Assembly (NCBI GenBank): GCA_902778055.1
Contig: CACYWL010000005.1
Location: 124,001-188,000 of the forward strand
Direction of reading: 5' to 3'
Length of the DNA stretch: 64,000 bases
Origin: an uncultured Eubacteriales bacterium
GTDB taxonomy: Bacteria > Bacillota > Clostridia > Christensenellales > Aristaeellaceae
The position numbers and the translations under genes were made by a program. Below the pieces are notes generated by a model. It was not told the origin of the DNA. It was given only the letters and a program-made list of their open reading frames with translations, and did not search any database. Numbering within the stretch: the first letter of the stretch is position 1; each line of letters starts with the position of its first letter. Below are positions 186-61,300 of this stretch, piece after piece.

Positions 186-1961
186 TTACAGCACGACCCT
201 CAGCACATTGAATCCCTCATAGTTCCTGTAATGCATGGATTTCGCCTGCTTCTTGACCAGCAGCACGCCCATGGAGTCCATCAGATGCTCCTCCTGATCC
301 CGCTGCAGCCGCCCGGTTTCCATCTGGAAGGGGTTGAAGCGCGGCGCGCTGTTGCGGATGCACAGGGAGTAGTCCCCGCCGTCTTCCTCGGCCATGGTCA
401 CCTGGATATATTCGTCCGGCTTCCCGCTGAAGGCCTGCTCCATGGTCACGAGGCACAGCTCCTCCACAGCCAGCTGCAGCTGCGCCGCTTTCCGGAGCGG
501 GATTTCCCGGGCCTCGCAGTATTCCTCCAGGGCGGCCAGCACCTTTCCGAGCTCGTGATCGGCGTTATCCATGCAGGCGCTGAAGGTAGCCGCCTCCTTA
601 CTTTCCCATTTGCGGGTCAGCCGTCTCCGGATCAGCAGCACCGTTCCCAGCGCGGCCGCCTCGCTGACCGGAAAGACCCACCAGAAGCCGGCCGGCCACA
701 GAAAGCCGAACAGCAGCATGGACAGCTGCAGAAACACGAAGCTCCTCAGCCCGGTAATCAGGCTGCTCGCCAGCTCCTGCCCGGTGGACTGGCTGAAGCC
801 CGTCAGGATAATCAGGATGCCCGCGAGGGGCGTACTCAGACAGAAGATACGGATGGCGGGCACGGAAACCGCCTTGGCCGCGGCCTCCTGAAGACCGAAG
901 ACAGCGGAGACCTGCCCGGAAAAGACGGCCGTCAGCCCGGCCATCACCGCGCCGATGCCGAGCCCCCAGGCCATCGTCAGCCGCAGAACGTACCGCAGGC
1001 TTCTGCGGTCATGCTCCTGGGTAAACGCCGCTCCGAGGGGCTGAACCGCCTCGGAGGCGGACTGATACGGCGCCAGGAGGACGTAGGACACGTTCATCAC
1101 CACGTCGAACACCGCCACGTACAGATCTCCGTTGATCAGCCCCCGGTCTCCCGCCCGCAGCAGCAGATGGTTGGCGCCCAGCAGGAACAGAAACTGAAAA
1201 ATGTATCGGAAGGAGGAGGAAAAACCGATGGTCAGGGAGCTCAGAACCTGCTTCCGGACACCCTTCCGTTCCGACCAGGAGGCCCGCAGAGCCTTCCACT
1301 GAAGAATTCCCCGCTTCTGAAACAGGTGCAGGGACAGAATCACCGCGCTGATCCCCTGGGAGGCGACGGTGGCGAGCACGGCTCCGCGGACGCCCATCCC
1401 CATCCCGATCACCAGCACGATATTGAGAATCACATCCGCCGCGCATCCCGTGGATAAACCCAGCGAGGCGAGGGCGGGATCGTTGTCGACCCGGACGAAG
1501 TCATACAGCAGGTAGTTCAGCATGAACAGCGGCGCCGCGCTCAGCAGCGGGCGGGCGTACTCCGTGCACAGCGCCAGCAGCTCGGGCCTGCGTCCGTCCG
1601 CGCCCAGCAGGAACAGAAGCTGATCCATCAGCAGGTTGGCCAGAAGCGCCGCGGCCGCGGCGCCCAGCAGCAGCCGGGCCGCGAGCATGCTGAAATGGCA
1701 CAGCGCGGTCTTTTCCCGGCCCTGGGCGGCCAGCTTCCCGTGGTTCACGCATCCCCCGGTGGCAAACCCATAGCCGAACAGGTTGTACAACATGTAGACC
1801 GGCGTTACGAGGCCGATGGCGGCCAGGCCCTTTTCGCCCAGCTGACTGCCCACGACCAGGGCGTCGGCGATGTCCGCCGCCGCCAGGGCCAGCCCGGAGA
1901 TCATGGAGGGCCACATCACCCGGTAAAACATGCTTCTCGGAATCCAGTTCGCTTTCTTCAT
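186..1961 (-). CDS. MATE-family transporter fused to a degenerate HATPase (RsbW-like) domain
   Basis: The 591-residue protein has about twelve hydrophobic segments over residues 10-450, with a MATE-type opening (MWPSMISGLALAAADIADAL) expected for a Na+/H+-coupled multidrug or metabolite exporter of the cytoplasmic membrane. Residues about 465-591 form a cytoplasmic domain with the layout of anti-sigma-factor kinases. The usual ATP/Mg residues are changed: the N-box reads VEELCLVTMEQAF (about 499-511) with Val where Asn is expected, the G1 box reads RNSAPRFNPF without the usual Asp, and the G2 region is DSMGVLLVKK. The domain therefore looks like a pseudo-kinase or sensor module. The ATG overlaps the stop of the upstream DUF2156 gene (ATGA), so the two are translationally coupled. 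Substrate unknown. Confidence 0.85.
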   Translation of the reverse strand: MKKANWIPRSMFYRVMWPSMISGLALAAADIADALVVGSQLGEKGLAAIGLVTPVYMLYNLFGYGFATGGCVNHGKLAAQGREKTALCHFSMLAARLLLGAAAAALLANLLMDQLLFLLGADGRRPELLALCTEYARPLLSAAPLFMLNYLLYDFVRVDNDPALASLGLSTGCAADVILNIVLVIGMGMGVRGAVLATVASQGISAVILSLHLFQKRGILQWKALRASWSERKGVRKQVLSSLTIGFSSSFRYIFQFLFLLGANHLLLRAGDRGLINGDLYVAVFDVVMNVSYVLLAPYQSASEAVQPLGAAFTQEHDRRSLRYVLRLTMAWGLGIGAVMAGLTAVFSGQVSAVFGLQEAAAKAVSVPAIRIFCLSTPLAGILIILTGFSQSTGQELASSLITGLRSFVFLQLSMLLFGFLWPAGFWWVFPVSEAAALGTVLLIRRRLTRKWESKEAATFSACMDNADHELGKVLAALEEYCEAREIPLRKAAQLQLAVEELCLVTMEQAFSGKPDEYIQVTMAEEDGGDYSLCIRNSAPRFNPFQMETGRLQRDQEEHLMDSMGVLLVKKQAKSMHYRNYEGFNVLRVVL

Positions 1962-44035: not shown

Positions 44036-45739
44036 TCAGTTCCGGCCGTACTCTCCCGTTTTTGATCCAGGGGGTTGAAGACCGGCCTGTTGCTTAACGC
44101 CAGTAATCCCTGTGTAATCTGCTTCAAAAACATTACCAGATTCCTCCGACCGGCCGCCCCGGTAGGCCACGCACAGCATGGTCAGGTCGTCAAACTGGTC
44201 CGCGCCCTTGACGAAGGCGTCCACGTCCGCCCGCACGCCCTTCAAAACGCTCTCCGGGTCGCGTTCCTGGATCTGGTTCAGCGCCAGTTCCATGCGGCCC
44301 AGGGTGTACTGTTCATCTTCGGCGTTGTTGGCCTCGGGCACGCCGTCGGTGTAGACGAACACCGCGTCGCTGGGCTTCATCCTGATCTCATAATCCTGAT
44401 ACTTCATCCCCGGCATCACGCCCAGGGGCAGCCCGTGCACGTCCGTCAGCAGCCGGAACAGGCCGTCCTCGCGGATGGCGGGATACTCATGGCCCGCATT
44501 GGCGCAGGTCATGACGCCGGTTTTCACATCCAATATGCCCATCCACACGGTGATAAACATGCCGGATTCGTTGTTCTCGCACAGCTGGCCGTTGACCTCC
44601 GCAAGGATCTGTGCGGGGCTGCCGCCCATGCGGGCGCGGAAGTTGATGAGTATCTTGGCCGACATCATCAAAAGCGCCGCGGGCACGCCCTTATCGGACA
44701 CATCCGCAATCACCAGCGCCAGGTGATCGTCGTCGATCATGAAGAAATCGTAGAAGTCCCCGCCCACTTCCCGGGCAGGATCCATGCTGGCGTAGATCTC
44801 AAACTCCTCCCGCTCCGGGAAGGGCGGAAAGATCATGGGCAGCATGGATTCCTGGATCTTCGTGGCGGTATCCAGCTCCGCGCGCACCACCGCCATGCGC
44901 TTGCCCCGGCCGGAGATCACGGAGCCCATGGCCAGCAGGATGGACAGCAGCACGCCACTGTACTGGAGCGCCCTGTTGGAGAAGGCGAACGTCACGATCA
45001 TGCCCGCCAGAGGCATCAGCAGAAACATGGCCGCGATCCTTTTTTCCCGCTTCGTGCCTTCAAATTGGGTAAAGCCACGCAGCAGGGGCGGCAGGATAAT
45101 CAGCAGGCAGGCCGTTATCAGGGGATACAGGCCCCGCCTTTGGAATACCCCGTCCGAACCCACAGCGAACACGATCGGCCAGAACAGATTGACGACCAGT
45201 ATCACCGAATAGAAGATGAAAAAGACGTTCAGCGCCCGGGTGATCCTGCGGCTCTTCTCCTGCTCAATGCCCAGCAGGTACGCGCTGTAAAGCCAGAACT
45301 GATAGCAAATGGCCGCGTTGACAAACACCAGCGCCGTGACGCACAGGCGGTGCAGCAGCGCCAGCGCGGCGACTCCGTCCATCAGCCAGCTGCATCCGGC
45401 CAGGAACATGCCCGTGACATTGGTCACGATCAGTGTGGCAAACAGCCGGGTGTGCACCTCGGCGCTGTCCGGGTCCTGCATATAGCTGTAATAGATCAGC
45501 ATCGACACCAGCATGCCCAGCAGCTCCATGCCCCCGGCGATCGCCGTGTCCGCGGAGGTGGCGTGGTCATGGAACAATAGCGTCAATACCACGGCGGCCG
45601 CCGTCATCGCGCAGATCAGCGCGTTGCCGTGCGCGAGCCGCTTCCGCACCGCTTCGGAGGGCAGCTCCCTCAGCTCGATCGCGCCAAGGAATTGCTCCCT
45701 CGTGGAACGCTGGAGCCATTTGGGATCGACTATCTTCAC
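44036..45739 (-). CDS. Membrane-bound SpoIIE/RsbU-type PP2C phosphatase
   Basis: The 567-residue protein has about seven to eight membrane segments (40-280) and a C-terminal PP2C-like domain (about 285-530). The metal-site aspartates are present: Asp328 in GGDFYDF, then IADVSDKG, Asp465 in FVYTDG and Asp517-518 in QFDDLT. Such phosphatases remove phosphate from Ser in STAS-domain proteins. Its gene starts 12 bases after the STAS-ligase gene, which makes that fused STAS domain the obvious substrate. The membrane part may sense an envelope signal. AAGGAGG precedes ATG 45739. Confidence 0.9.
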   Translation of the reverse strand: MKIVDPKWLQRSTREQFLGAIELRELPSEAVRKRLAHGNALICAMTAAAVVLTLLFHDHATSADTAIAGGMELLGMLVSMLIYYSYMQDPDSAEVHTRLFATLIVTNVTGMFLAGCSWLMDGVAALALLHRLCVTALVFVNAAICYQFWLYSAYLLGIEQEKSRRITRALNVFFIFYSVILVVNLFWPIVFAVGSDGVFQRRGLYPLITACLLIILPPLLRGFTQFEGTKREKRIAAMFLLMPLAGMIVTFAFSNRALQYSGVLLSILLAMGSVISGRGKRMAVVRAELDTATKIQESMLPMIFPPFPEREEFEIYASMDPAREVGGDFYDFFMIDDDHLALVIADVSDKGVPAALLMMSAKILINFRARMGGSPAQILAEVNGQLCENNESGMFITVWMGILDVKTGVMTCANAGHEYPAIREDGLFRLLTDVHGLPLGVMPGMKYQDYEIRMKPSDAVFVYTDGVPEANNAEDEQYTLGRMELALNQIQERDPESVLKGVRADVDAFVKGADQFDDLTMLCVAYRGGRSEESGNVFEADYTGITGVKQQAGLQPPGSKTGEYGRN

Positions 45740-45751
45740 ATCGCATCCTCC

Positions 45752-47629
45752 TTATTTTTTCCCGGCCAGCTTCTCCAGCGCGTCCTTCTTCAGGGCCACG
45801 CCGTCGATCTTGCCGCTGCCCAGCATAGGAAACCGGTCATAGACGATGAAGAAGGAGGGCACCTTGTATTTCGCCAGGCGCTTGAGCAGCTCCGCCTTCA
45901 CCGCCGCCTCGTCGAAGCTCGCGCCGTCCTTTAACTTGATGCAGGCCGCCACTTCCTCGCCAAAGAAGTCGCTGGGTACGCCGATCACCTTCACGTTGTC
46001 GATGATGTCCAGCTCGGAGATCGCCTCCTCCACCTCCCGGGGCATGATGTTTTCGCCGCCGCGGATGATCAGCTCCTTGAACCTGCCGGACAGGCACAGG
46101 TAGCCCATCTCGTCGATATAACCCATGTCGCCGGTATGCAGCCAGCCCTCGTCGTCGATGGCCTGGTCGGCCAGGGCCAGCTTGTAATAGCCGGTCATCA
46201 GGTTGAAGCCCTGCACCAAAATCTCGCCGCTCTCCCCCGTCGGGCGCTCGGCGCCGGTGGCATGATCGACGATCTTCACGCTGATGTTCTCCACGGGCTT
46301 GCCCACCGTGTGCAGGATGCGGTCGTCATCGTCATCGTACTGCGTCACGCTCACCGGGGCCATCTCGCTCAGGCCGTAGGCGATCATGAAGTGGTTGTCC
46401 GGCATCTTCTCCCGGAACATCTTCAGCTGGGCCTCGGTGGCCGCCGCGCCGGCCAGATAGGTGCAGCGCAGGCTCTGGAAGGCCTCGGCGGAGAAGTCCT
46501 TGTTGTTGATCAGGGCGATGATCATCGTGGGCACCGAGTGCAGCAGCGTGCACTTTTCATAGTTCATGATGCGGATCAGCGTGCCCGTGCGGATGTCACC
46601 CGGAATGTACAGCACCGCGTTGGTCATGGCGCAGGGCAGGAAGCACACCACCAGGCCCAGGATGTGGAACAGCGGCACGATCAGCAGGTTCTTGTCCTGG
46701 CTGGTCATGCGCTGCAGCCTCACCTGCACCGCCGCGGCGTTCAGCAGATTGTAGGAGGAGAGGATCACGCCCTTGGGCTTGCCGGTGGAACCGGAGGTGA
46801 AGATCACCACGCAGGGCGCGTCTCCCTCCACCTTCTGCTCGTACTTGCCCTTCAGGGCTTCGTACTCGCCGAAGCGGGTGCGCAGGCGCACGCTGCTGCG
46901 GATGGAGTAGTTGCGCGTCAGCTTGCCCTCGCTGGCGGCGCGGACCTCCTCCAGGAATGCCACCTCGTCCTTCATGGCCGGGATCTCGCCGTAGCACAGG
47001 CAGGTGATGTCGCCGATGCCGCAGATTTTGCCGATCTCCTGGGCGCTCTGGGTGGGGTTGATCAGCATGGCGATGGCCCCCAGCTTCTGGGTGGCGTAGA
47101 ACGTCAGCACCCAGTTCACGGAGTTGCCGCCGCAGATGCCCACATGGCTGCCCGCGCCCACGCCCAGGCGGGCCAGGTCCTCAGCGATGATCTGGGAGGC
47201 CCGCTCGATGTCATACCAGGTGAAGAGCTCCTCCTCGCTTCGCAGCACGATCTGGTCGGCGCCTGTACTCACATGATGGGCCAGCAGCTCCTTGATGGAC
47301 ATGTGGATATAGGTGGACACATCCTCCACCATCTCCTCGATGGTGAATATGGAATCAAAGCCCACGGTCCTGAAGACGGCGAAGATGTCGCTGTTGACGT
47401 TTTTCAACAGCAGCCGGTCCTTGGAAAAGCGCCGGCCGCACACCACCAGCTCCCGAAGCCCGGCGGAGGTGACAATCGTCACATCCCGGAAGTCCATCGT
47501 CAGGGCGGCGGTATCCCTGGGAATCCGGGCGATGGCCTCGCGGAGCTGGGGCGCGGTGTTGGTGTCGATGCGCCCGGAGAGGTACAGCTCGAGGGTGCCG
47601 TCGGCGAGTTGTTTCTTGATGATCTCCAT
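45752..47629 (-). CDS. STAS domain fused to AMP-dependent acyl-CoA synthetase-like ligase
   Basis: The 625-residue protein has an N-terminal STAS domain (about 1-105) with the phosphosite motif VTSAGLREL, Ser55 being the usual target. An adenylate-forming enzyme follows (about 110-620): A3 IFTSGSTGKPKGVILS (276-291), A5 YGLSEMAPVSVTQ (418-430), A8 GWLHTGDMGYIDEMGYLCLSGRFKELI, and the A10 lysine Lys607 in LGSGKID. It should activate a carboxylate with ATP and probably CoA. A STAS domain on such an enzyme suggests control by phosphorylation. It lies between two acyltransferase genes and the SpoIIE-type phosphatase gene in one operon. Acyl substrate unknown; AAGGAG precedes ATG 47629. Confidence 0.88.
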   Translation of the reverse strand: MEIIKKQLADGTLELYLSGRIDTNTAPQLREAIARIPRDTAALTMDFRDVTIVTSAGLRELVVCGRRFSKDRLLLKNVNSDIFAVFRTVGFDSIFTIEEMVEDVSTYIHMSIKELLAHHVSTGADQIVLRSEEELFTWYDIERASQIIAEDLARLGVGAGSHVGICGGNSVNWVLTFYATQKLGAIAMLINPTQSAQEIGKICGIGDITCLCYGEIPAMKDEVAFLEEVRAASEGKLTRNYSIRSSVRLRTRFGEYEALKGKYEQKVEGDAPCVVIFTSGSTGKPKGVILSSYNLLNAAAVQVRLQRMTSQDKNLLIVPLFHILGLVVCFLPCAMTNAVLYIPGDIRTGTLIRIMNYEKCTLLHSVPTMIIALINNKDFSAEAFQSLRCTYLAGAAATEAQLKMFREKMPDNHFMIAYGLSEMAPVSVTQYDDDDDRILHTVGKPVENISVKIVDHATGAERPTGESGEILVQGFNLMTGYYKLALADQAIDDEGWLHTGDMGYIDEMGYLCLSGRFKELIIRGGENIMPREVEEAISELDIIDNVKVIGVPSDFFGEEVAACIKLKDGASFDEAAVKAELLKRLAKYKVPSFFIVYDRFPMLGSGKIDGVALKKDALEKLAGKK

Positions 47630-47656: not shown

Positions 47657-48865
47657 TCAGGGCAGCAGGTAATTGTTTCCGGGGGTGGCAAAGGTTTCGA
47701 TCCTGGGCATCGCGTAGAGCACCACCGCGATGGTAAGTGCCCAAATCAGGCAGAACACCGCCTTGCGTTTGGCGCCCCGCAATCCGGCAATACCGAAGTG
47801 CAGGTGTTTTGAATTCCATTCAATGATGAAATAGCAGGCGACGAGCGTAAACAGCCCGTACACAAACGGCAGCAGGCCGCCCGGCATCAGATGGCCGCAG
47901 GTGGCGATCAGGATCGTCATCATCGGGAAGGTGAACATATAGCTCACGCAGTAATACTGATTGATGTTGCCGGAGATCTGGTTGACCAGTGCCGGGGCCT
48001 TGCCGCCCATCAGCTCCGTCAGCTTATAGAACAGCGCCAGGATCGCCAGCGCCGACAGGCACTGGGCGACGGCATCCGGGCCGGGGATCGTGATGTATTG
48101 CAGCCTTCCGCCAAATTCCGGCATCAGCGGGAAGGGCACGGACATGCGCAGCACATAATACGCCGCGCATACCGGCAGGCAGATGAGCAGGACCCGGTTG
48201 GCCAGCCCCTTTTTGTCGGCGATCCGGGGATACATCCCCCCGATGAAGTAACCAAAGGCTACAAACACGAAGTAGCTGGTCAGCGGGAAAAAGGAATAGG
48301 CGTCGTTCACCACAAAATAGCCGATCAGCACATCCACCGGAAAGCTGGACGTATTCCCGATAAGGCGGCTGAGCGTCAGCGCCAGCACATTCATGACAAA
48401 GCCGATGGCCAGGATCCCCACATCCGGCACCTTCAGCTTTTTCAGCAGCGCGATCAACAGGAACGCAATGCCTGCGAAGGAGAGGATGTCCGCCTGGACC
48501 ACCAGCAGCGAATTGGCGATAAAGAACTGCTCACCCTTGATCCACCAGGCGATCAGGTTGGGCAGGGCGTTGCGCAGCAGGTTCAGAAGCTGCCCCACCG
48601 TGAGGATCTCAATGCCGCGATAGACGTAGTCCGCCGGAGACTGCTTCCTGGAATAGCGCATGCCCACGCCCATGCAGATCATGAAACAGGCGGCGCCGGT
48701 GAAGATGCATGCATAGTCCAGAAAGTGGTAGATCGGGCTGGTCTGCTCGATGGCACAGTCCTCATAGATGTGCAGGAAGATCATGCAAACGATGCAAAAT
48801 GCCTTCAGCCAGTCCAGCTCCGGCTGCCGGCCCTTGTTGACTCTTTCACTGGCAAAGTAACTCAA
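47657..48865 (-). CDS. Multi-span acyltransferase (AT3/HGSNAT-like), paralogue 1
   Basis: The 402-residue membrane protein starts at a TTG (48863-48865) behind AAAGGAG. This start aligns its N-terminus (SYFASERVNKGRQPELDWLK) with the paralogue's SYLADHEVNKGRQPEIDCLK. Conserved features are the first-helix Arg/Asp and a His (FLHIYEDC), as in acyltransferase-3 and heparan-glucosaminide acetyltransferase families. About ten to eleven membrane segments follow. It would move acyl groups onto an extracytoplasmic substrate. It lies 27 bases before the STAS-ligase gene, so the ligase may supply its acyl donor. Confidence 0.82.
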   Translation of the reverse strand: MSYFASERVNKGRQPELDWLKAFCIVCMIFLHIYEDCAIEQTSPIYHFLDYACIFTGAACFMICMGVGMRYSRKQSPADYVYRGIEILTVGQLLNLLRNALPNLIAWWIKGEQFFIANSLLVVQADILSFAGIAFLLIALLKKLKVPDVGILAIGFVMNVLALTLSRLIGNTSSFPVDVLIGYFVVNDAYSFFPLTSYFVFVAFGYFIGGMYPRIADKKGLANRVLLICLPVCAAYYVLRMSVPFPLMPEFGGRLQYITIPGPDAVAQCLSALAILALFYKLTELMGGKAPALVNQISGNINQYYCVSYMFTFPMMTILIATCGHLMPGGLLPFVYGLFTLVACYFIIEWNSKHLHFGIAGLRGAKRKAVFCLIWALTIAVVLYAMPRIETFATPGNNYLLP

Positions 48866-48887
48866 GCGGAATGCTCCTTTCCCTGGG

Positions 48888-50090
48888 TCAAATCCCGAGG
48901 TAATCGTTCCAGATCGTGGCATATTCCGTGATCCTGGGGTAAGCATAGGCAAAGACGGCAATGGTCGCGATCCAGACCACCGCGAACGTCACCGCTTTCC
49001 AGGGCATCTTCAGCTTCGTGATGCTGTTCGGAAGCCCCTTCCGATCCTGCCACTCGATGACCAGATAGCAGACCGCCAGCGTGACCAGGCCGCCCATCAG
49101 CGGAAGCAGCGTGCCGGTCAGCAGCTCGCCACGGGTCGCCAGCAGCAGCACGCTTGTCGGCGTCAGCAGCACATAGCTGTAGCAGTAGTACTGGTTGATG
49201 TGGCCGGACAGGTGGTTGACCAGCTTCGGCGCGTTCCTGTGGCGAAGCAGCTTGTGGAACAGCGCCAGCAGGGCCAGGGACATCAATACATTCGCCAGGG
49301 CGTCCGTCACGGGCTTCATGATGTACATCTCCGTGCTGTCAAACTCCGGCAGCAGCGGGACGGGCACGAACGCGCGCAGCAGGTAATAGGCGGCGGCGAT
49401 GGTGCCGCAGATGAGCAGCACCCGCGTGGACAGCGCATCCTTGTCCTTTATTCTCGGATAGATGCCGCCCAGGGCATAGCCGAAGGCAACGAACACAAAG
49501 TAGCAGCACAGTGGGAAATAGGCCTCCGCCTCCGTGACCACGACAAAGCCCAGCACCTGGTCCGCCAGGTAGCTGCCCGTGGTGCGGAAGAAGCTGGACA
49601 GCACGAAGGCAAAGGCGTTCATGGCAATGCCGACGCCCACAATCGCGCCGTCCGAGAGCTTCAGCTTCTTGAACAGCGCCAGCAGCATGAACGCGAAGCC
49701 CGCGAAGGTCATGATGTCCGTCTGCACCACCAGCAGCGACATGGCGATGAACGTCGGCTCCCCCTTGCACCACCAGGCAATCAGGTTGGGCAGGGCATCC
49801 CGCACCAGGTTCAGCGCCTGGCCGACAGTCAGCAGTTCGAAGCCCCTTTTCAGGTAGTCCATGGGCGCCTGATGGCGGGAGTAGCGGGTGCCGATGCCCA
49901 TGCACAGCATGAAGGCCCCCGCGCCGGTCAGGCATTCGATAATCGTAATGATGTGATAAACGGCGCCCGGCGCCTCGGCGCACTCCTCAAAGGCGTGCAG
50001 AATAACCATGAAGAAGATGCAAAACGCCTTCAGGCAGTCGATCTCCGGCTGTCTGCCCTTGTTGACCTCGTGGTCCGCCAAATAGCTCAT
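48888..50090 (-). CDS. Multi-span acyltransferase (AT3/HGSNAT-like), paralogue 2
   Basis: The 400-residue membrane protein starts MSYLADHEVNKGRQPEIDCLK after GGAGG. It has the same layout as paralogue 1: VILHAFEEC in helix 1, MCMGIGTRYSRHQ, the large GYALGGIYPRIKDKD loop, and SGHINQYYCYSYVL near the end. The two copies diverged but keep the loop and His residues, so both are probably active and may modify different sites or form a pair. It lies 18 bases after the C11 peptidase gene. Confidence 0.82.
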   Translation of the reverse strand: MSYLADHEVNKGRQPEIDCLKAFCIFFMVILHAFEECAEAPGAVYHIITIIECLTGAGAFMLCMGIGTRYSRHQAPMDYLKRGFELLTVGQALNLVRDALPNLIAWWCKGEPTFIAMSLLVVQTDIMTFAGFAFMLLALFKKLKLSDGAIVGVGIAMNAFAFVLSSFFRTTGSYLADQVLGFVVVTEAEAYFPLCCYFVFVAFGYALGGIYPRIKDKDALSTRVLLICGTIAAAYYLLRAFVPVPLLPEFDSTEMYIMKPVTDALANVLMSLALLALFHKLLRHRNAPKLVNHLSGHINQYYCYSYVLLTPTSVLLLATRGELLTGTLLPLMGGLVTLAVCYLVIEWQDRKGLPNSITKLKMPWKAVTFAVVWIATIAVFAYAYPRITEYATIWNDYLGI

Positions 50091-50108: not shown

Positions 50109-52199
50109 TTACCAGTATTCCTCAGGGATCACTAGCTCCTCGACACCCTCCCAGGAATAATCCTCCGGCAAAATCATGCTGTCGCCGGTCCACTCCGCCT
50201 CGATCGTCTCCATCGGCATCGGGCGCATGAACATATCGTACACGATGTACTGCATGTAATAGGTTCCGGGCGGCAGCGGCTTGTCCTCCAGGTACATGGA
50301 GCGATAGAGGGTCTGCGGTTCAGCCGCGACGAACTCCGCCCAGGGGTCATACTCGTCGATGTACACGGGATACAGCACCGAATACTCCTGACCGGCCATC
50401 TGGGACAGCGACTTCACGTTCCGGTTGAACTGGCTGCTGTCCGTGTCGTAGCCCTCCCACAGGCCGTACACCGTATACCGGTCCTCCGCGCCGAAGTAGC
50501 CATAGCGCAGGAACCATTCCTTGCCTTCGATCTGTATGGGGATGCTGCCCAAATAGTTGATGGAGCCCGGCTCCACCATGTTGCTGACGAAGGAGGCCAC
50601 CGTCTGGCCCTCCAGCGCCGGCCAAAGCCACGGCTCAATGGCGGAATACTCGCCGTTTTCGCCGACGGATTCGTCGAAAAAGGCCGGCATGATGCCCATG
50701 GACAGCAGTTGTCCCGTCTCCTCGTCCTTCTTGAACAGCCTGTAGCGCACCATGCCCGCGCCGACGCCATAATCCCCCACGAAGGACAGGGCGGGCGTGC
50801 CGTCCTCCCGCTTGACCTTCTCGACCCTGATCTTGTACGCGTCGAGCTCAGACATCTCCGGCAGGCGCTCACAGGTATCGTACACCCAATCCGGTGCGGT
50901 CCACGGGCTGATGGCGTCCAGAAACGCCAGATAGTGCGGCATGGGGCAGTTGCGGGCGTAGCTGTCCATCTCGTCCAGGTCAAAGTCCACCGCGTAGCAG
51001 AAGGATATTCCCCGCGCGGCGCTGCGCCCGGGGCCGCGCACACAGTAAACCACGGTCTCTGTCAGGGCTTCCAGCATGGTCTGAAGGACCTCCGGCCGAA
51101 TCACCATGGCGATCTCCGGCGCGTAGAGCAAACCCGGCAGGTCGAACATGCCCTCGATGCTGTCGTTGGTGCCGAACCGCTCGATGTCCATCAGGTACTT
51201 GGCGAACTGGGACATCAGCCTGGGATATTTGGCGTAGACCTTTCCCACGCTTTCAAAGCCAAAGTCCACCAGCTTCACCAGCTGCGGGATCTTCTTCAGA
51301 TCGATGACCGACCAGGTGAGCAGCTGCTGGGCCTCATCGTCGCCCTCGTCGGTGTACTTGATCTGGCTCATGTCGCAGACCCAGCGCCCAAACATTTCTC
51401 CGTTGAACTCCGGGGTGATGTAGAGCTGCTGGAGCCAGTCGTCCACGGCGCTGCCCTTTCCCGCGACCACCTCCTCCGAGGCGATCATCCAGTTGGCGGA
51501 ATCCGCGATGGCGCTCGCGGTCTCGATCCCCGCCATCATGCAGGCGTCGAACATCACGGCTTCCAGGTGAACCCCGCTTTCCCGCAGGGCGTCGCCCAGC
51601 TCACCCAGGTCCATGGTGTCGCCGCTGAACAGCTCGTCGATGAAGATGCCCGTCTTGCTGCCGCCGCCGTGGTCCCACAGCACCAGCGCGTATTTCTTCG
51701 CCGGATAGTTTTCCGCGCCCCAGCGCACGAAATCCGTCAGGGTCTCCGGGTCGGCCATGCTCTGCAGGGGCAGGCTCTGCTCCAGGAAGAAGCCCTCCGG
51801 CAGGTCGTCATCCAGATAGCCCTCGTAGCGCCAGCGCTGCAGCGCGTCGCTGGAGATGTCCATCCCCAGCTCCCGGGCGGTGTGCCACTGCCTGCAGCCG
51901 CCGGTTTCGATCAGCACGTTGATGCGCCCCGGATTGGGCATCTCGGCCCGGTCCATCAGGGCTTCGTACTTTTTCATCATGTCGCCGATCCTGCTGTGGG
52001 GATAGACGCAGCTGGCGATCTCCTCCAGGTTGCCGGTGGCATAGCTGTTTCGCGATTCCAGATCGGAGCCGCACATGTAAAACAGCACCGTCCACTCGTC
52101 CATGTCTTCCGTCGGCTCCGCGAGCGCCGTGGACGTGCCGACCAGCAGCATCGCGCAGACGAGCGCCAACAGGGTTGGCAGCCATTTTCCCTTCATCAT
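50109..52199 (-). CDS. Secreted clostripain-family (C11) peptidase
   Basis: The 696-residue protein has a signal peptide (KWLPTLLALVCAMLLVGTSTALA). C11 features are FYMCGSDLES, catalytic His177 in VLWDHGGG and Cys220 in FDACMMAGIETASAI. Residues about 240-440 complete the caspase-like fold. The rest (about 440-696) is an unassigned beta-rich region. C11 peptidases cleave after Arg/Lys and often self-activate. It is the first gene of the operon with the acyltransferases, STAS-ligase and phosphatase, so it may process an envelope protein modified by them. It has no close similarity in length or tail to the 1376-residue C11 protein at 14799. Confidence 0.87.
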   Translation of the reverse strand: MMKGKWLPTLLALVCAMLLVGTSTALAEPTEDMDEWTVLFYMCGSDLESRNSYATGNLEEIASCVYPHSRIGDMMKKYEALMDRAEMPNPGRINVLIETGGCRQWHTARELGMDISSDALQRWRYEGYLDDDLPEGFFLEQSLPLQSMADPETLTDFVRWGAENYPAKKYALVLWDHGGGSKTGIFIDELFSGDTMDLGELGDALRESGVHLEAVMFDACMMAGIETASAIADSANWMIASEEVVAGKGSAVDDWLQQLYITPEFNGEMFGRWVCDMSQIKYTDEGDDEAQQLLTWSVIDLKKIPQLVKLVDFGFESVGKVYAKYPRLMSQFAKYLMDIERFGTNDSIEGMFDLPGLLYAPEIAMVIRPEVLQTMLEALTETVVYCVRGPGRSAARGISFCYAVDFDLDEMDSYARNCPMPHYLAFLDAISPWTAPDWVYDTCERLPEMSELDAYKIRVEKVKREDGTPALSFVGDYGVGAGMVRYRLFKKDEETGQLLSMGIMPAFFDESVGENGEYSAIEPWLWPALEGQTVASFVSNMVEPGSINYLGSIPIQIEGKEWFLRYGYFGAEDRYTVYGLWEGYDTDSSQFNRNVKSLSQMAGQEYSVLYPVYIDEYDPWAEFVAAEPQTLYRSMYLEDKPLPPGTYYMQYIVYDMFMRPMPMETIEAEWTGDSMILPEDYSWEGVEELVIPEEYW

Positions 52200-52310: not shown

Positions 52311-55300
52311 TTACACCGCCACGGCATCCTCCGGAAGAGGCTCGGTGGGGGCATCCTCCTCGGGATACCACTCGCCCTCTACCTGTTCGTACCGGTTGCC
52401 CGCAATGTCCTCGGCGGTATTCTCACCGGTCCATTCCGGCCAGATGGCCTGGCCTTCCTTGACGGTCACGTTCAGGTCGCCGTCCGCGATGCCCTCGATG
52501 CGGATGTAGTCGCTGTCGAAGGTATCGCCGTCGAAGGTGTTGGTGTAGAAGCCGTCGAACATGCTCACCTCGCCGTCCGTGCCGTCGCACATGGCGAAGA
52601 AGTGGTCGGTCAGGCTGTAGACCGGCAGGTCCGCGCCCTCCAGGTGGAAGCCGCGCAGCACGATGCGCAGGGGCACCGGCATGTCGAGCTCGTTTTTCCC
52701 AACCACGTTGGTCACGACCTTCACCAGGCTCTTTTCGCCTTCGGGCGTGTCGAAGAACATGCAGTTGTACTTCTCGATCTCCGCGCGGTCGGACTGGCTG
52801 TCGCGGTACAGGTACAGCGACACGTCCACGGGCTCCTCGCCGCCTTCGATCATGTTCACGCTGGTACGGAAGGCGTCCACTTCGTCGGTTTCCTCGTTGA
52901 CCAGCAGGTAGATCAGGATCTGGTCGGGATCTTCCGCCGTCTCAGGCGTGTCGCCCAGCCAGTACTTCTTCCAACCGTCCGCCTCGCCGTCGGGGACCAG
53001 GCCCTCGGCGATGCTGCCCTCCGGCAGCTCCTCGCCGTTCATGGCGGCGCCGTTGGCCGCGTCGGGATCGGCGATCATGCCGCGGATGAAGCCCTCGTCG
53101 ATCTTGCCCAGCAGCCAGTTGGCGGAGACCTCGTGCAGGTAGAGCTCGAAGTCGGCCAGGGACGGCAGCGTCAGCATGCCGGTGGCGAAGTTCAGCGAAC
53201 CCGTGGAACCCACAGGCATCACCGGATTGGAGAAGGCCCGCTTGGTCAGCGCCGTGATGATGTCGATGTCATGGATCTCGCCGTCGCCGCGCACTTCGCC
53301 TCGGAGCACCTCGGCCACATACTGCAGCATGATCTTGCCCGCGCGCCGGTTGCCGTACAGGCGGGTGGCATTGGGCAGCAGGTAGACGTCCAGATAGGTG
53401 GCGGTGTTGTTCCACAGCCGGTATTTGTTGATCTGCTCGTTGTCCAGGGTCACGTCCTTCGTCAGCACCACGGGATACTCCAGCACGAAGATCTTGCCGG
53501 CGGCGGCGTAGTCCTCCTCGCCGTAGCGGGCGCGTACCGTGCCGATGATCTGATCCACCTGGCGCTGAATATCCGTCAGCGGAGCCAGCGCCTTTTCCAT
53601 ATGTCTCCTCAGCGTACGCTCCAGATCATGCCAGTTCAGGTCGGAAACATAGGAGCTCTGCCCCATGCCTTTCTCCGAATCCTTGTCCTGATCCGCGTTT
53701 TCCTCCTCATAGCAGAAGTCACACCGCCGCTTCGCCGCGCCGAAGGCCCAGGATTTGTTGCTTCCGTTTTCCTGGATCTTATAGTCAATACAGTTCTGCG
53801 GATTCCGGGCGATGTGAATCTTATCGCCGCGGAACGTCACACTGAGGGTGTTGGTGCTCTTAATCTGGTTGAAGGAGGTTCCGGTGATGATGGCGGTCGG
53901 ATCCTCGGACGCGAAGGCGCCGCTGTCTCCCGTTTCCGCGATGGCGACCAGATAGGGTCTGTCCCCTGTTCCGAAATTGTTCACCAGCAGCTGAACCTTG
54001 GCCCGCTCACCGTTTTCCTTCATGGGGTTGGTCGCCGACAGGCTGGCATTGTCAATCCAGATCGTGTTCTGAAGGTTCGCGGTAATCTGGCTCTTCGCCA
54101 CGATATCGCTGTAGAGGGCGCCGCCATAAGCTTCGCTCTTCGTCTTGGCCCGCAGGCCCTGGTTGTCCGCGCGGATAACGATATCCCCGGTGTGGGCTGT
54201 CATCGCAGCCTTCGCGGTATTTCCGGTACCCTCGTTCCTGTTGATGTTGATATAAGTGGTAAAATTCAGCGTGTTGTAAACCCCGGAGTTTGGCCATACG
54301 AAGGCGCCCTGGGCCTTCACAACGCCCTTGGCATAGATACCGAAAGGCTTGCTGTCATCCGTGTTGCTCGTGCCGTAGTTGGTTTTCTCCGGCCGGGAGT
54401 GATTGTCCAGAGCGTCCTCCGCCTTGTCGCTGTCCGCGTACATCTTGTCCTTCGCCGCATCGTTTTCGGCTTTGGCAGCATCCCGCTCCGCAATCCGCTT
54501 ATCCTTTTCCTCCTGGCTCAGATTTTCCTCTGAGGAAGCTCCGACGATCGCGAGAATTTCATTGTCCTCCGGATGATCCGGTTCCATCAGGTTGGAATCG
54601 CCTTCGGAGGCGTAGCTGGTGGCCCGGGCCACCATCCTCAGATCCTTGTGCGCCGTCATCCGGGCGTTAGCCCCGATCTTGATGGTATTGACGGAAGTCA
54701 GTTTGTTCTCCGAATAAGCGCTGCCAATGGTGAACAGTCCGCCGGATTTTACATAGCTTTCCGAGGTGATGTTGTCCCCGACGCCGCTGATGTTCTCCAC
54801 GAAGATATTCGAGGTGTCGGATCGGATCAGCGCGCCGTTGTCCACGGTGATCCCGGTGTTGCGATTGATGTTGTTCACCGAGGAGACGACCTCGCCGCCC
54901 AGGATACCGCCGCCGCCCCGGACGATGGCCTTGGCTTCCGCTTTGGTGCTGTCGGCCGCCAGAATGCGCACCGTCCCCTCCGCGGTCACATGGGTCTGCT
55001 GACCGATGTCGATGTTGTTCTGGCTGTCGATGTTGTTTTCACCCCGGATAATGCTGTAATCCACCAGAACGCCTGCGCCGAGGGAGTCCAGGTCAGAAAC
55101 GGCGTTCGGCCTGGAGATGCTCCGGATGTCCAGGGTATTCCGGGAATCCAGCTGCACTTTCTGCCCGATGGCCACGCCCGTATCGTAGTACGAATGCGTC
55201 GGAATCGAGGCGTACTTCACGCCGACAATGTCCACGACATTCTTCGTAAAGTCCGTGTTTGTCTCTCCGTTGTTCTCCGCGTACAGAAGCATGGCGCCTT

Positions 55301-58300
55301 CGCTCTTCAGCTTCGTGTCGTCGCCGATCAGTACCATGGCGGTCTGCCGGTCCTCCTCTTCGCCGATCCCAGCCCGGATGTGGGAGATGCTCAGCGACAC
55401 GATGCCGGTGTCCGCGGGAGAGGTCGCTTCAGAGGTCGCCTTGGTATTTCCCTTGGCATAGACGGTAACGGGGCCCGCGATATCGGCGTCCACGCCGCTC
55501 ACTTGCGCATAGAAGCTGTCGCCCGTCCGGGCCTCCGTGTTCAGGCCGCCGATGGAGAGCACGTTGAATTCGACGCTTTCCTTGCTGCTGGCGGTGGCGG
55601 CGGTCTTTCCATCCCGGGAGATGCCGCTGCGCACTGTCAGCTCGTCGGCGGTGATCCCGTTGTTCTCGCTGCCGGTGCCCTGGATCATGGCGGTGGAATC
55701 AATGTTTTCCTTCGCCCGCACATAGTGCATCGTAAATTCACCGACGTTGATCTCAAAGCCGTCCTGGGGCTCGTCATTGGTGCCGGAGGCGCCATGGCTG
55801 GCGCCGGTCGTCGCGTTGTCCGTCATGCTGCGGACGTTCACAGCTGCCGCGTCCAGAATGGTGCCTTTGTCCAGCTTCAGCACAGCCGCCTGTCTGTTGG
55901 CCAGCTCGGCCCGGGCCAGGCTGCCGCCGATGTTGACGCCTTTCAGGGCAAAGTAGTTGGCGGAAGCGACGCCGCTGTCCGCGGAGCCCCATCCGTTCAC
56001 TTTCACGTTGATATCCCCGTCCGAGGACACAGTCGCGTCGTCAATCTCCAGCTGCGCCCGGGCGTAGGCCTTCCCCTTGGCTTCCGCCATATCGAAGCTC
56101 ATCTCGGACAGCTTGATGTCCACGCCCAGCGCGGAGGGATTGACCACCGCGTTCGCTTTGCTGGTGTAGTCCGTAGTCACGTCCGCGTTCTTCAGATTGT
56201 AATCCCCGCCCCGCAGGGTCACATGGTTGTCATATACATCCTTGCTGTAGGCGACCCCGTCCATAAAGGCAATGGTACCGGCCAGCTGCAGGTCCTGATT
56301 CAGAATCTTGCTTTCCACATCGTTGGATCCGGTCACCTTGCTCTTCACGGCCATCTTCCGGGCCGTGTCCGCCGGCGCCGCGCCGAGGTCGATATCCACC
56401 AGCGCCTGGCTGGTGCCCTTCGCCTTGGCCACGTTGACGGCGATGCCCGCCAGGCCGATGGCGCCGGTCAGCTGCTTGGCGTGCGTCTTGGCGTCCAGAT
56501 TCGCGGCAGCGTCCAGGTCTCCCCCGATCGCGCCTCCGATCCTCATCTGACTGAGGCTGGTGGCCTCGTTCAGCGCCACCGCCACGGAGGCACTGCCTGT
56601 GCCTGCGGAAAGGGCGAGTCCGACCAGAAGCGCATCCGCTTCCGCAATGCCATTGGATTTCAGCTCTACGCTGCTTCCTCCGATACCGTTGTTGCCGTTG
56701 ATCATGGCCGCGCTGACCGCCCGGTTTCTCGCCACCGCGGCGTTCAGGGACACGGCCCCGCCCTTGGGCGAGAAGGCCGCGTCCGCGGACAGAGAGGTCA
56801 CGCTGGCGCTGGTTTTGCCTTCGCGCTTGTCATTGGTGACAACCTTCACCGGCCCGGTGACTGTTCCGTCAAATTCATCCGTATTAATGGAGGCGATGTT
56901 TCTGGAGTTCACGTCCACATAGCTGACGCTCGCGCCGATGCTGGCATTGAATCCGACGCCAAGATGCGCGAAGGTGGCTTCGCCTTCCGCGTCCAGATTG
57001 CCGCTGACCTTCAGGCTGCCGATTTCTCCGCCGGCTCTGCCGATCCGGGCTTCCGCGTCCGTATCGTTGAACACCAGCAGCACGTTGCCCGCGATGCCGG
57101 CTTTCATGGAGGCGGATATGGAGGCCAGAAGAGAGTTCGCGCTGCTTTCCACATCATTGTCTATTTCAACGCTCTTCATCTTCCCAAGGCTGGTCCTGGC
57201 GTTCGCGCCAGTCTTCGGGTTCACGCCGATCGTGGTATGAATCTCCGGATTCACGTTCACCATGGAAAATCCCAGTCCCAGCGCTATCGTACCGGAGTAA
57301 GCCGCGCTGATCATCATGCTCTCTCCGCTGGTCACGGAGGTAGCTTTCACGTGCAGGTTGCCGCCTTCTCCGCCGATATTCAGGGATGCGCCCTGATCGA
57401 TGGAGGTGTTCTGCGTCAGACTGTTGTTCACCACGCTGACGGTGCCCACGCCGGAGGCCGTCATCCCGACAGCCGCAGAAGCCGCGCCTGTCCGGGCCTT
57501 CATCATGCCTTCCGTCGTTACATAGATATTCGAGTTCGTTCCGGTGATATCCGCGCTGTCGTCGATTCTTGCTTCGACTTCGCCGTCGGCGATGGCGACC
57601 GCCACGGAACCCGCGATGGCGTGGCTGACACCGCCGGCGCCGGCCACGGTCACCGCCAGAATATTCTCATATTTCGAGGCGCCGTTCACCGTCAGATCCT
57701 TCACATTCTGAACCTTGCCGCCCAGGATGGCCTGGGTAATGTTGTCCGCCCTGGCCACGCTGCCCGCGAGGCCCAGTCCCTGCGAACCGCCGCCCACGGC
57801 GAGGCCCACCACCCGGATGGACCGGGCAGTCGCTTCTCCGCCCTCGCTGAAGCTCTTCATCAGGGAAGAGTTCCGCTCCGCCGCAGTGGTGTCCTCTTTC
57901 GCTGTCTTCAGGGCGTCCCCTGTGGTGGAGCGGGCGTCCACCGTCATATTGCCGCCCTGGGCGTCCACGGTGCCAAGGGAGGCCGCAATCACATTGCTTC
58001 GCAGGATGGCGATGCCGAATCCGACGCCCGCGCCGCCCAGTTCCTTGCCAATGCCGATGGTGGCGCTGAACAGGTCTGCCGTGGAATCCTGCTCCGCGGT
58101 CACATTCACGCCCCGGGCGGTAATCTCCGCGTCCCTGGCAATCCGGGCCACCACAGCGTCGTCCGGGTCGTCGCTGTACACGGTGGTACCGACGCTCCGG
58201 GCATTCACGATATCCTTTGTTTCCTTTGTTTCCCGGTTCTCGTCCTTGTTTTCGGGGTTATGCTCCGCCCCCTGGGTCTGATCCAGTTTCGCCTGCTCCC

Positions 58301-61300
58301 GCTCCTGACCGCTCAGCGTGGTATCATCCTTGAAATCATCCTGATTCACCATGCCGGAGCTGGCGTCGAATACGCCGTCCGTCTGGGTTTTCACCTCATA
58401 GCTGGCGTTTTGGTTGCCGCTCAGATCCTCGGTGATCCCGCTGATCTGCCGCGTCCTGGTCCGGTCTCTGGGATCCGGGGTCTCCTCGCGGGCTTCCAGA
58501 TCCGAGGTATCAACGCCCAGCTCCTTCAGCCGCGAGACCATCGCGTCGCTGTCGAAGGCCTTCTGTCCGCTCTCTTTGTTGTTGCTGCCATAGGCCAGCA
58601 TGTCCGCGGCGTCCTTGTCCATCCTGTCGCCGGCCACCAGGGACATCACGGTCACCCCGACGCCTGCTGTCCCCGCGCCGCTCACGTTCAGGGCCACGTC
58701 GACGATGTCACGCTTCGCGCTGGCGCTGATGTTGGCCGCGCCGTCCAGCGCCGCTTTGCCTTCCATTTCCGCCAGCACATTGGCCTTCGCCACGGTAACG
58801 ATGGTGTTCACGGCTCCGGCGATGGCAGTGGCGCTGCTGTCATAGGAGATCGCAGCGGAAGCGCCCGTCAGGTCGTAGTCGCCCTGGGCGTTCACATCCA
58901 GCGAACCCGCGCTGATGCTGGTTCCGTGCTGCACCAGGGCATTGGTGGAATCCTTCAGGAACATCAGACTCACCGCGCCGGATACCGTGTATTTTCCCAT
59001 TCCCATGCCCGCTGCCGCGCCGATGGTGTACTGATCAATATCCTTATACGCGTCCGCGCTGATGTTCACCGCGCCCGCCGCATCCACCTCGCCGCTGCCC
59101 AGCATGGCATTTGTTTCCCCGCCATAGTAGGTCAGCGCGAACACAGGCGCCAGCGTCAGATCGCTGGTGGCAGTCCCTGCCAGGGCAATATTGATATTGT
59201 CGATGAAGCTCCGATTCTTCGCCGTCAGGTTGAAGCTGCCCTTTACCGCCTTCACCTCGCTGGCCACGGCAGCGTTGACGCTGTTCTTCAGCACCTGGAC
59301 GGAAATGCCCGTCTGAATATTCCCGCTGCCCATGCCCATGGTTGCACCGGCATTGACATTCAGTTCGTTGATTTCATCCCGGTTATCCGCGGTCACGTTC
59401 ACGTCCTGCAGAGCATGCAGATGATGTCCCAGGGCCTTGACATCCTTGGATGCCGTCAGCACGATCAGTCCCGGGCCCACGCTGTTGCCGAAGGAAAGGC
59501 TCAGGCCGCCGGCCACCGCCCAGATCAGGCTGTCCGCCTTTGCTTTTACGTTCACGCTCCCTCCGGCGGTGGGCCGGGTGATATTGTTCACCGCGAAAAG
59601 CTCCGCCTTTCCGGCGTCCGCATGGACGGTGTTGCTGTTCACGGAGGTTACCGCGTTTACGTTGACGCTGTTCCGGCCGGTGCTGACCGCAATGCCCGCC
59701 GTAATGCCGTAGGTATGGTCATTTTCCTCCGCGCCGACCAGGATATCCCCGCCCCTGGCCTGCACGGTGCTGGTACCCATTTCGGTCTTCACCGTATTGT
59801 TCCGGAAAGCGAACAGCGCGCCGGCGCCGGTAGCGCTTCCGTCCTGACCCCCGGGCTTGCTCAGGGAAACAGCCACCTGTCCGGCCACCGCCACGGTGGT
59901 ATCCTCCAGCCGGGAGGTGAATTCCGCCTTGCCGCCCGCGGTGATCAGGGCCTTGCCCAGGGTATTCTTCACTTCATTCGAAGTGACCAGGATCGGCAGA
60001 TTGCCGCTGGCAGCGCTTTTTTTTGCGCCGCTCAGGGCCAGGGCGGCCAGCACGGAGAGATCGGCTCCCTCCGCGGCCATCCGCACATCCTTCCCGGCAG
60101 TCATCCGGTATCCGTCGCCGCCCTTCACGCTGACGCCGGATTCCCGGCTGAAGAAGTTGAAGTTCAGGTTCAGGCCGATACCGCCCTTCTTGGCGCCGGC
60201 CGCAGCCAGAGTTGCGTTCACCGCGCGGGTTTCCGCTTCCCCGGCGATTTCGATATTGCCGGCAGCAAACAGCCCGTGGCCTTCTCCGCCCGCCGCGAGT
60301 TCGACAAGAGCCTTCGTCCGGGCGTGGATGATGTTCAGCGTGCCCGCGAAGGACTTTCCGCCGTCGCCCACAGCATCTAAGCCGACGGAGGCGCTGGCGG
60401 CCGCGGAAATCACCCTGTCCACGGAATCCGCCCGGATCGTCAGATCCCCGCTCTTTGCTTCCAGCCGCTGGTTTTTCCCGATTTTTATCCTCGCTTCCGT
60501 CTGCAGATCGTTGTACGCGACGGTGCCGCCCACGGCGGTGCCCCGGGACGCGCCCATGGCGCTGACGATGATCGTCATCAGATCCTTGTCCGCGCTGGCA
60601 GTCGTCTCCACGCTGCCGCCGGTAATCCGCGCGTTGTCCCCGATGGAATTGATTGCCCTGTTCTGCAGCAAAATCACTTCCAGGCTGCCGCCCAGGGCCC
60701 GGGATTCATCCTTGACCTCCGTACTCACGGCAGCGGCCGCGTTGATGGACATGACCTCCATGTCGGCGCTGACAGCCTGTTTCACCGCGCCGTCCGCTTC
60801 AATCACCAATCCCGCGCCGGAGGCTGCGTTGACCTTGTCCTGGTTGTACAGGAAGGTCACCGTGGCGCCTGCGGCGTTCTTCGCGCTGCCCACGGACAGG
60901 GCGCCGCCGATCAGGCGGGCCGTCGTGTCGCCGGAGGCGACGATCTGGACCCGGTTTTCCGGCGCCGCCGCGCTGTCAGCTGTCTGCTCGGCCTGGGCCT
61001 GCTTCTGCACGATCTTTACGTTTTTCCCAAGAATGGCGTCAATTATGTTTTCAGCCCGGACGATGGAGAAGCTTCCCGTCAGGTTCAGGGCGTTGGCCGT
61101 GCCAAGCTTCGCCTGTCCGGTGATCAGGGATCCGCCCACGGCCTCCGCGTAGTAGTTCTGGCTGCTCAGGAAGTTCAGTTCGTCGACGAAGTTCATCAGG
61201 GCATAGCTGTCAACGTTGATGTCGATGGAATAGCTCTTCTCGCCAGGCTTCCGGTGCACGTCGATGAGGCCGGTATAGACATTCTCCCGCTGCTCGTCGT

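Follow-up and report, generated by a model that had tools for sequence, protein, structure and literature searches.

Partner switching is mostly taught as a means of freeing sigma factors. In the window, i.e. the whole 64,000-nucleotide stretch of DNA analysed here, from an uncultured Eubacteriales bacterium, a STAS domain appeared to be fused directly to an acyl-CoA-synthetase-like enzyme. This raises the question of whether the fusion is genuine and, if it is, whether a partner switch could act here on an enzyme of metabolism.

A STAS domain and an acyl ligase share one reading frame

The fusion ORF runs on the minus strand from 47629 to 45752, from ATG to TAA and without interruption; the plus-strand frame over 45752-47629 contains a stop and is meaningless. 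The features of the locus are the following:

45752..47629, minus strand: STAS-acyl ligase fusion, a two-domain frame of 625 aa
47333..47629, minus strand: N-terminal STAS domain, residues 1-99 (PF01740, PDB sequence matches, model)
47465..47467, minus strand: codon for the predicted phosphosite, Ser55 (10 of 11 intact homologues have Ser here)
45767..47278, minus strand: AMP-forming acyl ligase, residues 118-621 (PF00501, PF13193, Foldseek)
44036..45739, minus strand: SpoIIE/RsbU-type PP2C phosphatase, 567 aa, GTG start (PF07228, 152 bits)
47657..48961, minus strand: HGSNAT-like multi-TM membrane acyltransferase (PF07786, 39 bits; module HMM, 638 bits)
48888..50090, minus strand: second HGSNAT-like membrane acyltransferase (PF07786, 37 bits)
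50109..52199, minus strand: C11 (clostripain-type) peptidase with a signal-peptide-like start (PF03415, 85 bits)

In Pfam searches, the STAS domain (PF01740) scores 32 bits over residues 7-103 (cut-off 22.6), AMP-binding (PF00501) 243 bits over residues 118-482 and AMP-binding_C (PF13193) 42.5 bits over residues 532-607, the latter two likewise above their curated cut-offs. The AlphaFold2 model of the fusion protein reached a mean pLDDT of 93 and a pTM of 0.81 with a 50-sequence alignment (pLDDT 67 with 6 sequences), and it is least confident at the linker, around residues 101-110. Pfam, the model and the homologues described below bear out the original prediction of a STAS domain joined to an acyl ligase in a single 625-aa frame and, since the same intact two-domain frame is present in ten other genomes, the fusion is not an artefact of assembly or reading frame. 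Neither Pfam nor TM prediction detected a transporter domain in the protein, which sets it apart from the SulP/SLC26 family; the sole hydrophobic stretch found by TM prediction (residues 315-333) falls inside the ligase. A promoter and terminator scan around the locus gave no clear boundaries.

The ligase part possesses both the N- and the C-terminal subdomain of the ANL superfamily (PF00501, PF13193, Foldseek). As had been claimed, its motifs are intact: this holds for A3, A5, A7 and A8, with TSGSTGKPKG at residues 278-287, YGLSE at 418-422 and GRFKELIIRGGENI at 515-528, and for the A10 lysine, K607. The motifs are kept in nearly all fusion copies, and the A10 lysine is invariant among the intact ones. 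Foldseek matched the ligase part to EntE, CahJ, 4CL and MenE at E-values of 1e-40 to 1e-46; the best fold matches are CahJ, FscC and EntE, and the best sequence matches 8weu, 5buq and 3a9u. As to the substrate class, none of the 25 best NCBIfam models reached its own curated cut-off.

The STAS domain is predicted to be RsbV-like

The STAS part is modelled with the topology b-b-a-b-a-b-a-b (pLDDT 90-95), and the top PDB sequence matches of residues 1-107 are the anti-sigma factor antagonists 4hyl, 6m36, 4qtp and 1sbo. Ser55 lies within IVTSAGLREL, opens helix 2 in the AlphaFold2 model and, in the alignment with 6m36, matches the serine of the RsbV motif 'MDSTGLG'; motif, position and alignment agree on an intact predicted phosphosite. 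The intact copies of the fusion keep the serine with a single exception, L244, which has Leu at this position and in which the A3 and A8 motifs are altered as well; Asp46 of the STAS-ligases is invariant among the intact copies. Conservation of Ser55 alone is no proof of its use, since Ser or Thr is common at this site in STAS proteins lacking proven phosphorylation, as noted in work on MlaB (PMC7367683). We therefore treat the domain as predicted to be RsbV-like and Ser55 as a putative phosphosite.

The fusion is rare, and its copies form one clade

Besides the copy in the window, we found ten that are intact and one that is broken; most come from Clostridia of the rumen and gut. Six of these came from a scan of named genomes, namely L054 (72% identity), L055 (62%), L056, L057, L059 and the broken L058; whole-genome profile searches added four further copies in the family of L059's genome and one in the class. 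Genes were called with a codon-bias caller, as a longest-ORF caller chose shadow frames in these GC-rich genomes. Profile scores are bimodal, with full-length copies at 860 bits or more and unfused ligases at 461 or less.

The original prediction had named two grounds against itself, a serine not conserved in relatives, or an inactive ligase together with a sporadic fusion, and the outcome is mixed: Ser55 is kept in 10 of 11 intact copies and is Leu in one, and the ligase retains its catalytic residues, but the fusion is rare. It occurs in 5 of 397 genomes of the family of the L059-bearing Lachnospiraceae MAG (L059's own included), in 2 of 391 genomes of a class-level sample (the window's own included) and, as a frame with STAS and ligase, in 1 of 396 genomes of an order-level sample (the window's own only). 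It is thus rare yet kept in at least 11 genomes, a large share of which are MAGs from rumen or gut, and because the copies form one clade we regard it as a rare architecture and not as an artefact. In L058 (6309-8190, a Selenomonadaceae MAG) the STAS-ligase is broken by several frameshifts and a stop; this is either a pseudogene or a poor assembly, and possibly a horizontal acquisition. Both parts look to be under purifying selection in the comparison of the window with L054 and L055 (NG86 dN/dS of 0.25-0.45 for STAS and 0.19-0.42 for the ligase, wider comparisons lying near dS saturation).

Sister ligases bear a HATPase-like tail

The nearest relatives in the ligase tree have no STAS domain and end in a HATPase_c_2-like domain. 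In this maximum-likelihood tree of 64 rows, midpoint-rooted and of limited sampling, the 11 STAS-ligases form one clade (100/100), as do the nine ligase-HATPases (100/100); the two clades are sisters (100/98), and 44 of 44 unfused ligases fall outside. Against Pfam HATPase_c_2 the tail scores 25.7 bits (E 1.3e-5), just under the cut-off of 27.4, and profile comparison with intact kinases gives an E-value of 4.8e-6. Neither the N-box Asn (EEMLTER, EEMLTDR) nor the GGLGI box (G2 motif) survives in this tail, whereas the stand-alone kinases and SpoIIE-HATPases of the same genome set keep both. These losses suggest that the tail, kinase-like but catalytically degraded, is probably a binding domain.

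The ligase-HATPases stand in mirror operons, found in Lachnospiraceae, with the constant gene order ligase-HATPase, HGSNAT-like acyltransferase, free STAS and SpoIIE-HATPase sensor (L245, L246 and L247).

Phosphatase and acyltransferase genes lie beside several fused ligases

In the window, the phosphatase gene follows the fusion after a 12-bp gap that contains GGAGG. Its product has about seven TM helices (38-275) ahead of the phosphatase domain (288-529) (TM prediction, Pfam); its PDB matches are the response-regulator phosphatase 3es2/3eq2 and Rv1364c, and the nearest relative of its sensor half is encoded in the L055 genome, directly after a stand-alone STAS gene. Upstream, at 27 bp, lies the first of two acyltransferase genes, both of the HGSNAT/Acyl_transf_3 kind; as homology of the first begins at residue 32, its true start is probably near 48868. 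The C11 peptidase gene keeps its synteny in L054 and L055, and its membership in the module is uncertain. No kinase gene was found near the fusion in the window genome.

Further upstream, a very long, repetitive, adhesin-like frame (52311-63998, minus strand; 3895 aa within the window) nearly reaches the window's end, and a similar long repetitive frame precedes the fusion in L054 and L055. Near the opposite end, a MATE transporter with a C-terminal HATPase_c_2 domain (186-1961, minus strand; 43.6 bits) has lost its N-box Asn, and just past it, outside the window, lies a SpoIIE phosphatase gene (G000:C5:122415-122987). Similar MATE-HATPase frames occur at L045 9298-11139 (N-box retained), L219 7693-9471 (adjoining an NRPS-like gene), L194 1830-3602 and L050 2004-3809, and we found no description of such fusions in the open-licence papers searched.

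Several distant copies of the fusion repeat the association. L241 has SpoIIE, then the STAS-ligase; L242 has SpoIIE, STAS-ligase, further genes, acyltransferase, SpoIIE and kinase; and L243 has acyltransferase, STAS-ligase, free STAS, further genes (among them an ECF-like sigma factor and another STAS), SpoIIE and kinase. The RsbW-like kinases of the L242 and L243 clusters have intact N-box and GGLGI motifs. An HMM survey placed a SpoIIE phosphatase 1.86 kb downstream of the fusion in L054. A SpoIIE gene lies within 2 kb in the window, L054, L241 and L242; extending the distance to 8 kb adds L243, for a total of 5 of 11. In the 8-kb survey an HGSNAT-like acyltransferase is near the fusion in the window, L054, L055, L242 and L243 (again 5 of 11). 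The same survey of 19 unfused ligases found STAS, SpoIIE, HATPase or HGSNAT neighbours beside none (Fisher p = 0.003 for SpoIIE and for HGSNAT linkage alike). In the survey and its Fisher tests, relatedness lowers the effective number, and some of the very genes counted had served as HMM seeds. A SpoIIE gene within 2 kb in 4 of 11 copies has a chance probability of about 1e-6; with close relatives merged (3 of 9), this becomes 2e-5 to 7e-5. In the 14 genomes checked, the HGSNAT-like family is nearly confined to fused-ligase modules: 10 of its 13 copies adjoin a fused ligase.

No phosphatase gene was seen near the fusion in L055, L056, L057, L059, L244 and L269, several of which are at contig ends. 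L057 and L059 have NRPS-like (A-PCP-C) genes and no acyltransferase as neighbours, and the L057 cluster also encodes a ligase-HATPase sister enzyme. An NRPS or siderophore role, which these two loci and the EntE-like folds had brought to mind, was rejected for the window, L054 and L055, where NRPS genes do not adjoin the fusion. As regards the co-occurrence of a HATPase kinase gene with the fusion, which the original prediction had proposed to check, HATPase_c_2 exceeds the Pfam cut-off in every fusion-bearing genome but that of L056; this genome, with no HATPase_c_2 above the cut-off and marginal SpoIIE matches only, is small and perhaps incomplete.

Several other arrangements of the same domains came to light. 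STAS, an aminoglycoside-phosphotransferase (APH)-like kinase and HATPase form triple fusions at L193 5728-7308 (minus strand) and L195 6732-8408 (plus strand) (Pfam), whose clusters also encode free STAS and SpoIIE sensors, in a constant order; L189, L191, L194 and L196 have similar N-terminal STAS frames of 525-555 aa, and L192 3442-4617 has STAS and APH only (Pfam). At L217 6723-8985 and L218 4592-6939, sensor, SpoIIE and HATPase form one chain, and a small STAS gene comes next; at L217 these two genes adjoin an NRPS-like gene in a horse-gut genome. A conserved family of about 200 aa with no Pfam match adjoins stand-alone STAS genes (L045 8641-9228, L193 9943-10548, L243 8475-9107); it was considered as a degraded HATPase and rejected, with a profile comparison probability of 2.9%. 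Proteins of about 430 aa at L059 1-7042 and L048 8157-9467, near fused ligases, have no Pfam match and are condensation/acyltransferase-like.

A candidate partner switch with an acyl ligase as its output

The adjoining SpoIIE genes, the kinase genes in other clusters, the kinase-like sister clade and the HATPase co-occurrence together support control by partner switching. We consider it reasonably probable that the locus encodes a partner-switching module that acts directly on an acyl ligase, which in turn feeds a membrane acyltransferase. In this model, an RsbW-like HATPase kinase would phosphorylate Ser55; the intact kinase candidates of the window genome are an orphan kinase (G000:C4:91651-92022) and a MATE-HATPase on C12, and either might serve. 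A signal sensed by the adjoining 7-TM phosphatase would lead to removal of the phosphate from STAS, and the two forms of STAS, differing in the partners they bind, would gate or recruit the ligase. The ligase would produce an acyl thioester (or acyl adenylate), and the neighbouring acyltransferase could transfer the activated acyl group to an acceptor that lies at the membrane or beyond it. The arrangement would be mirrored in the sister lineage, with a free STAS, dephosphorylated by the SpoIIE-HATPase sensor, binding the ligase's non-catalytic HATPase domain. The genomic context lends good support to the control by partner switching that had been proposed; the domains, motifs, linkage and tree are established from sequence, while phosphorylation, its effect on the ligase, the direction of control, the substrate and the acyl acceptor are inferred. 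More tentatively, the sister ligase lineages may have taken opposite halves of the switch, STAS in one and a degraded HATPase in the other, with phosphorylation and not transcription setting the acylation of a surface or secreted product; in that reading, each lineage has a phosphatase sensor and the same membrane acyltransferase family in some genomes.

The STAS domain could instead be a docking module without a phospho-switch that tethers the ligase to a HATPase-bearing partner, either the MATE-HATPase transporter or the L057 ligase-HATPase, and so joins enzymes or couples synthesis to export. This would fit the absence of the N-box Asn from the ligase-HATPases (also without G2) and the window MATE-HATPase, both of which look more like binders than kinases, the occurrence of MATE-HATPases beside an NRPS-like gene (L219) and close to the fusion (L244), and the L056 genome, which is without clear kinase and phosphatase. 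However, Ser55 is retained in 10 of the 11 copies, SpoIIE phosphatases adjoin the fusion in several unrelated contexts and the kinases of the L242 and L243 clusters are intact, and we consider docking alone unlikely.

Control might also flow the other way, with the ligase, loaded or empty, as an acid or adenylate sensor and STAS as a conventional anti-anti-sigma output that would signal the supply of acid to an anti-sigma kinase and a sigma factor. RsbR, like YtvA, reportedly has sensor inputs fused to a STAS output. Sensor-fused STAS outputs such as YtvA (PMC10949197) and the ECF-sigma-like gene of the L243 cluster would suit this reading, which we regard as distinctly unlikely: the conserved catalytic residues and the co-encoded acyltransferase fit an active enzyme, no sigma factor gene adjoins the fusion in the window, and the kinase-like domain on the mirror-operon ligases is degraded. 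Docking of STAS to an acyl or peptidyl carrier protein that the ligase loads, in the manner of the YchM STAS-ACP structure (Babu 2010, as cited in PMC7367683) and in keeping with the A-PCP-C genes beside L057 and L059, seems very improbable, because no carrier-protein gene was seen beside the window, L054 or L055 fusions and the SpoIIE genes and mirror HATPase-STAS operons would be left unexplained.

If, as in the partner-switching reading that we prefer, STAS acts in cis on an acyl-activating enzyme, metabolism would be subject to rapid post-translational control, and a single-protein system would allow the consequence of STAS phosphorylation to be read as measurable enzyme activity. Sister enzymes with mirrored fusions, STAS on one and HATPase on the other, would constitute a natural experiment on which half of the switch a target must carry. 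The module also points to an uncharacterised pathway of acyl activation and membrane acyl transfer in rumen and gut Clostridia.

Comparison with known systems

With ANL ligases of the FadD, 4CL, MenE and EntE types the fusion shares the complete ANL fold and motifs; it differs from them in its N-terminal STAS domain and in grouping with the ligase-HATPases apart from the 44 unfused ligases. All4160 of Anabaena is likewise a STAS-enzyme fusion, although of another enzyme class, and we know of no kinase-phosphatase operon or mirror fusion that accompanies it. The original view, which took STAS domains as a rule to be stand-alone antagonists or transporter tails, proved too narrow, given STAS fused to a sensor in YtvA (PMC10949197) and, N-terminally, to a glycosyltransferase in all4160 (as cited in PMC8256260). 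MlaB, whose STAS binds the MlaF ATPase (PMC7367683), and the STAS domains of SulP/SLC26 also have non-transcriptional partners, but the fusion protein includes no transporter domain. As in RsbU-RsbV-RsbW and SpoIIE-SpoIIAA-SpoIIAB of Bacillus subtilis, a STAS domain whose helix 2 begins with Ser is often encoded in one cluster with RsbW-like HATPase kinases and SpoIIE/RsbU-type PP2C phosphatases; here, however, STAS and acyl ligase are covalently joined, and the output is not evidently a sigma factor.

The component families are known, as are partner switches that target enzymes. In the open-licence papers searched, however, we found neither of the two fusion types, STAS-acyl ligase and ligase-HATPase, described, nor any account of these operons. 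The SiaABCD system of Pseudomonas aeruginosa sets a precedent in which a phosphatase/kinase partner switch controls an enzyme in place of a sigma factor (PMC8457831, PMC7647112). There, SiaC stands apart as its own protein and targets a diguanylate cyclase, while in the window the switch domain and the acyl ligase are joined in cis; in the mirror arrangement a kinase-like domain is placed on the ligase itself.
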